Positions 23,702 to 26,616 of a DNA stretch of 32,174 nucleotides are shown here, piece by piece. A program made the translations under genes and the position numbers. This DNA is from Sphingomonas sp. 28-63-12. GTDB lineage: Bacteria; Pseudomonadota; Alphaproteobacteria; Sphingomonadales; Sphingomonadaceae. A model generated the notes under the pieces. The model was given only the letters and a program-made list of their open reading frames with translations, had not been told where the DNA came from and did not search any database. Where the stretch lies: assembly GCA_002281535.1 (NCBI GenBank), contig NCGD01000031.1, positions 1-32,174 on the forward strand, in the 5' to 3' direction. The first letter of the stretch is position 1. Every line of letters starts with the position of its first letter.

Positions 23702-23729
23702 GAGACCCCAGCTTTCGCTGGGGTGACGA
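23702..23729 (+). repeat. REP-like hairpin A (forward)
   Basis: An 8-bp stem ACCCCAGC/GCTGGGGT with loop TTTC (23705-23724) is flanked by GAG and GACGA. The 28-nt unit is identical to copy D at 24268-24295. It lies 26 bp after the thiolase stop and faces copy B, forming a REPIN-like inverted pair. Its GC-rich stem is not followed by a T-run, so it is a repeat rather than a classical terminator. Confidence 0.85.
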
Positions 23730-23753
23730 TTGGGGTTGGGATACCCCCTCAAA

Positions 23754-23812
23754 CGTCATGCCAGCGAAAGCTGGCATCTCGCGCCACAAACGATAACCTA
23801 TCGTCATGGCGC
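23754..23812 (-). repeat. REP-like hairpin B (inverted), overlapping the GIY-YIG start
   Basis: The stem ATGCCAGC/GCTGGCAT with loop GAAA (23758-23777) is the reverse orientation of copy A. It has compensatory changes in the outer stem. Similarity to copy C continues past the hairpin, through CGCCACAA and ACCTATC, for about 59 nt (45 identical positions by eye). This stretch includes the ATG of the GIY-YIG gene at 23806. Confidence 0.8.
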
Positions 23813-24096
23813 TGGGCGGTTGGACCTACATCATGGCGAGCAACCCAAGGGGCATGCTCTACATCGGCGTGACCGCCTATCTCGCCAAACGCGTAACGCA
23901 CCACCGCGAAGATCGGGGATCGGCCTTCTGCCGCAAATACGGGATCAAGACGCTGGTCCTCGTCGAGCGGCATGAAGAAATCGCCTTCGCAATAGCGCGC
24001 GAAAAGGTGCTGAAAAGCTGGAAACGCGCGTGGAAGATCGAGCTGATCGAAGCGAGCAATCCGATGTGGCACGACCTGTACCAGCGTATCCTTTAG
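23806..24096 (+). CDS. Small GIY-YIG nuclease (COG2827-like)
   Basis: This 96-residue protein is a single GIY-YIG nuclease domain. The two tyrosine motifs are TYI (7-9) and YIG (19-21), the catalytic Arg is R29 in LAKRVTHHRE, the metal-binding Glu is E66 in IAREKVLKSWKRAWKI, and Asn is N85 in SNPMWHDL. All catalytic positions are kept, so it should be able to nick or cut DNA. The family role is unsettled; related small proteins have been linked to DNA repair or mobile DNA. No clear ribosome binding site precedes the ATG, which lies inside repeat copy B. Hairpins A and B stand upstream and C and D downstream. A later ATG would delete the first motif. Confidence 0.92.
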   Translation: MALGGWTYIMASNPRGMLYIGVTAYLAKRVTHHREDRGSAFCRKYGIKTLVLVERHEEIAFAIAREKVLKSWKRAWKIELIEASNPMWHDLYQRIL

Positions 24097-24160
24097 CGGC
24101 TTGAGATCAGTATTTGGGTTGGTGTCATGTCACCCGTCGGTCGATAATCCCTCCTTCGAC

Positions 24161-24219
24161 CGTCACACCAGCGAAAGCTGGTGTCTTTCGCCACAAGCTC
24201 GCACCTATCATCCTGGTGA
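24161..24219 (-). repeat. REP-like hairpin C (inverted), long form
   Basis: The stem ACACCAGC/GCTGGTGT with loop GAAA (24165-24184) is followed by CGCCACAA and ACCTATC. It aligns without gaps to copy B over about 59 nt. The outer stem differs from both A and B, yet every pair is kept. It lies 64 bp after the GIY-YIG stop. Confidence 0.8.
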
Positions 24220-24267
24220 GGCGCGGCCGGGGCGGATGCGCCTTACGGAACGGCCCGCTTGGGGCAC

Positions 24268-24295
24268 GAGACCCCAGCTTTCGCTGGGGTGACGA
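24268..24295 (+). repeat. REP-like hairpin D (forward)
   Basis: The stem ACCCCAGC/GCTGGGGT with loop TTTC (24271-24290) is identical to copy A over 28 nt. With copy C it forms the second inverted pair. Centre-to-centre distance is 106 bp against 53 bp for A-B. The rest of 24097-24389 holds no supported gene. Confidence 0.85.
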
Positions 24296-25959: not shown

Positions 25960-26616
25960 TTAGCCGGGGCCGGTCTTTCCCGCAAGGCTGGGATAGGGAT
26001 CGATCGGCGTGCCCTGCCACCAGCCGTCTGCGGTACGCATCTGCGACAGGCCGAAATGGAGGTGGTAGTTACCCAGACCAGCATTGCCGGTATCGCCGAC
26101 AAAGCCAATCATTTCGCCAGTCTCGACCAGCTGCCCTTCGTGTAATCCCGGCGCATAATTGGCAAGGTGCGCATAATAATAACTCCATCGCCGGTCCGGC
26201 GAGCGGATATAGATGGTGGTGCCGCCTGCCGCGCTGACACTGAGCTTTTCGACGACGCCTGCGGCGGCCGCGACGACGGGCATGCCGGCGGGGGCAATGA
26301 TGTCCGTGCCATGATGCGCGCGCTGGCCATTGTCGCGTGGATCGCCCCAGCTATCGGCAATTTCCGTCCGCGCGACGCCAACTACCGGCATGATCAGCGG
26401 CGTGATCACGAATGGCGCCGAGGGGCGGCGCGTAAAGAAATTGGCGATGGGGTCAACCGATCCCGATGGCGATGACGCGTGAAGCGATGCATCCACCGGA
26501 ACCGCTGCGCTGACCAGATGGCCCGATGCCGGCGCCACAACGTGCAGCTTCACGGTGCTCGCGAACGCAGCGGCGACTGCGGCGAGCAACAGCCCGGTGA
26601 TGGCGATGCTGCGCAC
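25960..26616 (-). CDS. M23 family metallopeptidase (LytM-like)
   Basis: This 218-residue exported protein has an N-terminal signal or anchor ([16 protein letters not shown]) and a C-terminal LytM/peptidase_M23 domain. Zinc motifs are [14 protein letters not shown] (HxxxD), YYYAHLANY and the final [10 protein letters not shown] (HxH). It should cut peptide cross-links of peptidoglycan or, if regulated, activate amidases; no coiled coil of EnvC type is seen. The start is GTG at 26616, 3 bp after the L,D-transpeptidase stop, so the two cell-wall genes are co-transcribed. efp follows 55 bp downstream. Confidence 0.9.

Follow-up and report, generated by a model that had tools for sequence, protein, structure and literature searches.

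In the window, the 32,174-nt stretch of Sphingomonas sp. 28-63-12 analysed here (contig NCGD01000031.1, positions 1 to 32,174), a gene for a small GIY-YIG nuclease lies among four CGTC-tagged hairpins of the repetitive extragenic palindrome (REP) type. Judged from sequence comparison, the locus is probably a cognate nuclease-hairpin pair, in which the gene unit is bounded by hairpins with their CGTC tags outward, and it appears very likely that the nuclease recognises its hairpin. That it also moves the repeats is a tentative proposal and on balance doubtful. Relatives of the gene are associated with such hairpins in a preferred polarity, hairpin type follows the nuclease tree, and dispersed copies form dimers with outward tags. 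Furthermore, several gene units occur within single genomes, and the unit is present in one of two sister genomes and absent from the other. The repeat family is known and the nuclease family most likely is as well; the link between them is the valuable part of the finding.

Hairpins flank homologues of the nuclease gene

The 25-nt repeat unit consists of a CGTC tag, the stem A-Y-N-CCAGC, a GAAA loop, the complementary arm and a final C. Flanks were inspected at 110 homologue loci, which are the best-ranked listed matches in Sphingomonadaceae, the window included, and not a random sample. A tetraloop hairpin (at most 2 mismatches) was found in 124 of 216 flanking segments within 200 bp of the gene, compared with 1 of 213 segments lying 500-700 bp off. 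With zero mismatches the counts were 82/216 and 0/213, respectively. A second class of hairpin with a CTTGA loop occurred in 60 of the 216 near segments and in 1 of the 213 distant ones. Strict copies within 200 bp of the 110 loci numbered 101, where genome density predicts 0.44. Tetraloop hairpins stood on at least one side of 71 loci and on both sides of 55. When hairpins were searched without a sequence pattern (stem of at least 7 bp, loop of 4 or 5 nt, within 150 bp of the gene), 109 of the 110 loci had one on at least one side and 89 on both. The first-pass annotation of the window, made from its letters alone, had proposed to look whether homologues are flanked above chance. They are, in this family and also among the more distant named loci described below (59 of 76 upstream flanks).

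The flanking hairpins are oriented. The nearest upstream tetraloop unit had its tag outward in 52 of 60 cases and the nearest downstream unit in 52 of 66. In the 5-nt-loop class, carried by many homologues without a tetraloop unit, the loop read CTTGA upstream (31/33) and TCAAG downstream (27/28). The usual unit is a tag-outward hairpin, the gene and an inverted hairpin, and the outer span of two-sided units has a median of 377 bp (interquartile range 366-391, 89 of 110 loci).

Hairpin type matches across the gene and follows the nuclease tree

The inner stem core was identical upstream and downstream at 74 of 89 loci (shuffled mean 19.5, maximum 31). Among tetraloop loci, taken once per genome, the cores were equal at 42 of 43 (shuffled mean 19.2, maximum 29), and the two bases outside the core agreed at 27 of these 43. 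A nuclease tree was built from 93 columns and 110 rows and has few well-supported forks. On this tree the hairpin type changed 11 times over 84 labelled loci, compared with at least 34 times in 500 shuffles. With one locus per genome there were 9 changes over 58 loci (at least 22 in shuffles). Sixteen genomes carry genes of different hairpin types, and such genes mostly lie apart in the tree. Two points weigh against a strict pairing of nuclease and hairpin: only loci whose two sides agreed received a label (84 of 110, which leaves 26 unlabelled), and the sister rows L028 (CCAGC) and L058 (CCCGC) of genome G016 differ in type.

If repeats and a mobile gene both settled in intergenic DNA, they might meet by chance or at hot spots. 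The sister genome G216 does hold other palindromic DNA at the places of the gene unit and of one dimer. However, the flank counts (101 copies for 0.44 expected, 1/213 at 500-700 bp), the polarity and the equal cores (42/43) render this explanation scarcely credible, and it was rejected on the flank counts and matching cores.

A regulatory role was also considered. The hairpins lie close to the gene, with a median of 34 nt from hairpin end to aligned start and of 12 nt from stop to next hairpin. Di Nocera, De Gregorio and Rocco (2013, PMC3733652) state, moreover, that REPs are believed to function as RNA hairpins. The hairpins could thus control the nuclease by ending transcription or by affecting mRNA stability, and not be its substrates. 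We regard this as improbable, since generic regulation leaves unexplained why the core tracks the nuclease tree, why one core stands on both sides and why units are dispersed. A role as terminators only is disfavoured, because cores match across the gene and follow the tree. Regulation could coexist with recognition.

Arrangement of the hairpins in the window

A pattern scan with the tagged unit CGTCAYNCCNGCNNNNGCNGGNRTC found 4 exact matches in the window, hairpins A, B, C and D. The features of the locus are as follows.

23704..23728, minus strand: hairpin A, CGTC-tagged REP unit; stem ACCCCAGC/GCTGGGGT, loop GAAA; exact match to the unit pattern.
23754..23778, plus strand: hairpin B, CGTC-tagged REP unit and left end of the gene unit; stem ATGCCAGC/GCTGGCAT; exact match, placed as in homologues.
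23779..23805, plus strand: leader from hairpin B to the start codon, similar in its first 16 nt to the flanks inside dispersed dimers; 0.044% of window 16-mers score so high.
23806..24096, plus strand: GIY-YIG nuclease gene, 96 residues; Tyr8, Tyr19, Arg29, His33, Glu66 and Asn85 present; AlphaFold model.
24161..24185, plus strand: hairpin C, CGTC-tagged REP unit; stem ACACCAGC/GCTGGTGT; exact match to the unit pattern.
24186..24216, plus strand: degenerate copy of B's leader, 3' of hairpin C; 22 of 31 positions identical.
24270..24294, minus strand: hairpin D, CGTC-tagged REP unit and right end; stem as in A; its inner flank has a score that 0.023% of window 16-mers attain.

The core CCAGCGAAAGCTGG matched perfectly at 23708 (-), 23761 (+), 24168 (+) and 24274 (-). 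Five other window matches have 3 mismatches each, which makes 9 in all, an unremarkable number for so loose a pattern (shuffle mean 4.81; 5 of 100 shuffles reach 9). For the tagged unit with up to 3 mismatches, 7 window matches were counted where 1.33 are expected, and none of 100 shuffles reached 7. Two of the three extra matches are opposite-strand readings of B and D, and the third, at 26254 with 2 mismatches, is chance-like. Folded as single-stranded DNA, hairpin B forms an 8-bp stem and a 4-nt loop with a 3-nt unpaired tail (-9.2 kcal/mol, z -5.07).

The first-pass annotation had described four copies of one hairpin with an 8-bp stem and a 4-nt loop near the gene. The four exact unit matches between 23704 and 24294 bear this out, and its account of the orientation, the constant loop and the varying outer stem pairs is correct. 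Its phrase "two inverted pairs" has to be revised: relatives mostly have an outward tag on the hairpin nearest to the gene on either side, and A and C are extras relative to that usual arrangement. Hairpin C is followed by the degenerate leader of B, and the stretch from C to D may represent a second unit with an internal deletion.

The nuclease

The window protein contains a GIY-YIG domain (PF01541, 41.9 bits, cut-off 22.6). Y8, Y19, R29, H33, E66 and N85 are the positions expected to be catalytic in a GIY-YIG nuclease. In an alignment of 43 sequences E66 is nearly invariant and the other five are invariant. The domain score and the presence of all six residues agree with the earlier prediction of a complete GIY-YIG nuclease. 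An AlphaFold model has a mean pLDDT of 93.3. In a Foldseek search with this model no match reached E 0.001 or better; the first were the UPF0213 protein 1zg2 (E 0.0022, TM 0.57) and then entries of Slx1-Slx4, a branched-DNA nuclease. The UPF0213 and Slx1 proteins are similar to the model in fold, but only 16-22% identical to the window protein. By sequence, the window protein alone gave no convincing match in the PDB, whereas the family profile matched two UPF0213 structures, 1zg2 at E 2.4e-8. One homologue of the protein, searched against a phage collection, gave no match.

The hairpin is a dispersed repeat in the host genome

The genome that contains the window (3.48 Mb, 54 contigs, 94.8% complete) holds 26 exact cores including the window's four, and a reversed control gave 1 match. 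Hence, the hairpin belongs to a dispersed family. A looser 24-mer with up to 2 mismatches yielded 78 genome matches (control 1), several of them chance-like by eye. From the exact-core and 24-mer lists 40 regions were chosen by eye, the weakest places and those on contigs C49 and C54 being left out. In these regions 31 of 32 close copy pairs were head-to-head dimers with tags outward, 30-34 nt between the copies and about 81 bp overall. Several regions had a single copy only, and one (L164) had no match. Altogether 71 genomic copies were collected, 57 of them distinct in sequence, by a search that fixed GTCA (2 mismatches allowed) and not the first tag base C. This base was C in 65 of the 71 copies.

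That the outer stem pairs covary, as noted before, is weak on four copies and clear on the 57 distinct ones: 63 cells were changed on both sides compared with 15.6 in shuffles (0 of 500 as high), and 94.7% of stem cells were paired compared with 85.2%. Less striking was the number of stem pairs with change on both sides (4 compared with 2.3; 49 of 500 shuffles reach 4). The copy-finding pattern favours constant stem bases, and it did not couple the left and right bases of the three pairs that vary most. In the distinct copies the first stem pair is A-T in 49 of 57, and the second is C-G in 23 and T-A in 23. The 3-nt tail of genomic copies is mostly CTC or CTT. A weak motif is common to the inner flanks of the dimers, and the inner flanks of B, C and D have scores that are reached by 0.044, 0.082 and 0.023% of window 16-mers.

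Three nuclease-family loci with three hairpin types are present in this genome, the window gene being the one with CCAGC. Among the 71 dispersed copies the base that separates CCAGC from CCGGC is A in 36 and G in 33. This split suggests, without proving it, that both tetraloop nucleases had a share in spreading the copies. The CCGGC locus (L010, G000:C22:12171-12440) holds a decayed relative of the gene with an in-frame stop near its end. Its upstream CCGGC hairpin is imperfect and lacks the CGTC tag. At the third locus (L011/L012, G000:C41:190698-190971) a broken relative lies between CTTGA and TCAAG hairpins.

The repeats fit a published family. As described in PMC3733652, CGTC-1 REPs have a CGTC tag at one end, an 8-bp stem with complementary A and T at the first and second stem positions, a 4-nt loop and an unpaired tail that is mostly CCA, and they mostly form head-to-head dimers. 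Their hosts are mostly alphaproteobacteria, including S. wittichii and S. chlorophenolicum, and the neisserial members are the dRS3 repeats (PMC3733652). The window repeats share the tag, the 8-bp stem length, the 4-nt loop, the dispersal and the mostly head-to-head dimers, but differ in the tail (mostly CTC or CTT) and in having a GIY-YIG gene as partner. The RAYT-independent REP system that the first-pass annotation held to be possible is therefore, and in view of the GIY-YIG/repeat pair in Neisseria discussed below, not clearly new in kind. According to PMC3733652, CGTC repeats do not accompany transposase genes and seem to have no transposase of their own, and its authors suggest that CGTC REPtrons may have vanished early. 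The term GIY-YIG is absent from the text of PMC3733652.

Repeat number and gene presence across Sphingomonadaceae

In 199 genomes of the family, homologues were called at E 1e-5 and repeats were counted with a strict pattern that covers the tetraloop types only. A homologue was present in 134 genomes and a strict repeat in 144; the control had 0 matches in the rows listed. The 134 gene-positive genomes had a median of 12 strict repeats and the 65 gene-negative genomes a median of 0, with at least one repeat in 114/134 and 30/65, respectively. Within the 24 genera that include both kinds of genome, gene-positive genomes had more repeats in 20 and fewer in 4. The comparison of repeat number with gene presence that had been proposed for this locus thus came out positive. 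Twenty genomes had the gene without a strict repeat. Eleven of them have a locus among the 110, and all 11 carry an off-pattern hairpin on at least one side.

Several observations weigh against so close a link. When 4 repeats per gene copy were discounted, the medians were 2 and 0 (p 0.0035), and the mixed genera gave 15 higher, 5 lower and 4 ties with the gene (p 0.041); the abundance link arises partly because the flanking copies themselves are counted. Genome G071, with 12 gene matches, has just 25 strict repeats. Nine of the 199 genomes have at least 5 strict repeats and no gene match. Six of these nine lack any family-profile match at E 0.1, so that repeats occur without the gene. The other three have profile matches at E 2e-14 to 2e-11 with the end of the profile missing, which look like another GIY-YIG subfamily, and one of them (G049) also has a 20-residue fragment.

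As a separate observation, genomes G196, G136, G032 and G015, and the less complete G018 and G177, contain 12 to 46 strict CGTC repeats while the GIY-YIG family gene was not detected. This suggests that there the repeats outlive the gene or come from elsewhere.

It was also considered that the repeats are driven by a RAYT, with the GIY-YIG gene as a bystander. In PMC3733652, RAYTs are thought to mobilise GTAG REPs, and the E. coli RAYT is described as cleaving the GTAG motif of single-stranded REPs. The RAYT/REPtron, an IS200/IS605-type transposase with GTAG REPs (PMC3733652), resembles the window locus in its REP-flanked gene, its repeat-specific genes and its dispersed dimers. However, it combines a Y1 tyrosine transposase with GTAG, and the window locus a GIY-YIG nuclease with CGTC. 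The repeat median is slightly higher in Y1-positive genomes (8 compared with 3, p 0.052). On the other hand, a search of the own genome at E 1e-5 gave no RAYT-type Y1_Tnp match, and Y1 occurs in just 27 of the 199 genomes. The GIY-YIG gene is present in 48 of the 53 genomes that have 20 or more strict repeats (134/199 overall), and a Y1 transposase in 12 of them. Moreover, a CGTC repeat was seen at none of 10 Y1 loci examined, out of 29 matches listed. A RAYT origin is thus very unlikely and was rejected in the main, and the suggestion of a RAYT-independent REP family tied to a GIY-YIG gene holds.

Relatives outside the family

A profile of 15 homologues matched at E 1e-10 in 90 of 299 genomes of the phylum. 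At 26 further loci (stem of at least 6 bp) hairpins were found on both sides in 16, on one side in 5 and on neither in 3, and 2 were unparsed (L206, L225). The named loci are the 80 best among at least 541 confirmed relatives. By record title they come from Gamma-, Beta-, Alpha- and Deltaproteobacteria, Nitrospira, Planctomycetota, Bacteroidetes, Omnitrophota, Parcubacteria and others. There a hairpin was present in 59 of 76 upstream and 58 of 76 downstream flanks, compared with 4 of 72 and 2 of 69 segments 820-1000 bp off. In the 46 named loci with both hairpins the cores matched in 39 (shuffled mean 16.4, maximum 26). Some named loci, for example Anaerolineae and both Elusimicrobia, had no hairpin, and this counts against a general pairing.

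A homologue was present in two Neisseria gonorrhoeae records, NZ_CP119140.1 (L308) and NZ_CP119142.1. At the one gonococcal locus examined, L308, the protein is 46% identical to the window protein, and 16 units of CGTC-1/dRS3 type (at most 2 mismatches) are spread over the stretch from 0.9 kb upstream to 0.7 kb downstream of the gene start. Both records, of 2.17 Mb each, are filed as plasmids, although their size is chromosome-like.

A study of Ssn, said to have appeared in Nature Communications in 2025, reportedly dealt with a GIY-YIG family that acts on single-stranded DNA only and cuts a repeated sequence of N. meningitidis. The family is said to have many homologues, each with its own target sequences. 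This Ssn system is a GIY-YIG/repeat pair in Neisseria, and the gonococcal homologue may be its nuclease, possibly with dRS3 as the target. The window protein is like Ssn in being a small GIY-YIG protein and in having a neisserial homologue amid dRS3-type repeats. It is probably an Ssn-family nuclease, one of the GIY-YIG enzymes specific for single-stranded DNA. Against the proposed pairing of nuclease and hairpin, the nearest hairpins at L308 have their tags toward the gene, opposite to the usual unit. A literature search, with most subscription papers outside its scope, found GIY-YIG together with dRS3 in no paper, nor GIY-YIG together with "REP sequences" and "palindrom". The sole match for GIY-YIG with "repetitive extragenic palindrom" was, by its listing, a Moraxella carriage study.

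Signs of movement and the proposed role of the nuclease

In each of four genomes (G139, G071, G111, G135) several gene units that are 82-98% identical lie at different sites. In G016, G046 and G006 the gene pairs are just 71-76% identical, over about the gene. In the sister genome G216 the same two neighbours, thiolase and IMPase (about 91% identical), are present, and the DNA between them holds neither a nuclease gene nor a CGTC hairpin. The thiolase neighbour was seen in just the loci of these two genomes among 30 IMPase loci checked. The dimer of L147 is likewise absent at the orthologous place in G216. From these alignments, gene unit and hairpins are likely mobile, with junctions that are not base-exact. 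Some findings weigh against mobility: identity between gene-unit copies runs variable distances beyond the hairpins, other DNA occupies the place of the window's gene unit in G216, and a search there for a target-site duplication or a base-exact empty site, made for this cassette and for the L147 and L143 dimers, had no success. At the L143 place G216 has another palindrome, and G203 has one related hairpin-like stretch in a poor alignment.

We propose that the protein would be a small single-domain GIY-YIG endonuclease with the CGTC-tagged hairpin, probably single-stranded, as its cognate substrate. By analogy with the E. coli RAYT (PMC3733652), it would bind the folded hairpin and nick beside the unpaired tag. 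With lower confidence, such nicks might allow the copying or excision of hairpin units whenever replication, repair or DNA uptake provides single-stranded DNA. In that case the dispersed dimers would be non-autonomous derivatives of the gene unit, which is likewise said with lower confidence.

Alternatively, the nuclease may be a site-specific cutter and no mobiliser. It would then cut incoming or exposed single-stranded DNA at the hairpins and tune natural transformation or recombination, the role reportedly proposed for Ssn in Neisseria, while the repeats spread otherwise. The position of the neisserial homologue inside a cluster of dRS3-type units, the repeats without detectable gene in six of nine checked genomes and the lack of a target-site duplication at the places compared with G216 are in line with this. 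However, a self-copying unit is what the 82-98% identical gene units in each of four genomes fit, as do the single polarity of the dimers, the inner flanks common to dimers and window copies, and the 16 genomes with genes of different hairpin types. A cutter that does not mobilise is a serious possibility, not far short of an even prospect.

Extending the proposal of a nuclease that moves its hairpins, the GIY-YIG genes of this family with outward-tagged CGTC hairpins might be the missing autonomous elements ("CGTC REPtrons") behind the CGTC REP superfamily across phyla. They would be single-strand mobile elements run by a GIY-YIG nuclease and not by an HUH or DDE transposase, and the nuclease clade would set stem and loop. 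We offer this as a conjecture with less than even chances. A candidate partner gene is now at hand for the CGTC REPs, the superfamily of palindromic repeats in bacteria to which dRS3 belongs and for which no dedicated transposase was reported in 2013 (PMC3733652). Since this gene goes with its own hairpin type in many bacteria, origin and function of the repeats become directly testable. The many natural nuclease-hairpin pairs also lend themselves to a study of how an enzyme of roughly 90 residues reads a DNA hairpin.

Two minor observations concern the surroundings of the repeats. At the places of the gene unit and of one dimer, G216 has a long palindrome with arms like CGTTCGT and ACGAACG (L169 about 1390-1480; L323). 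This looks as though palindromic repeats of different kinds occupied one intergenic site together or took each other's place there. In G139 and G071 (L024, L048, L049, L050, L051, L025, L111) further similar stretches lie outside the hairpins, for example GTCAGGA...CGACAT...GCGGACG, and these may be another repeat or a preferred insertion target.
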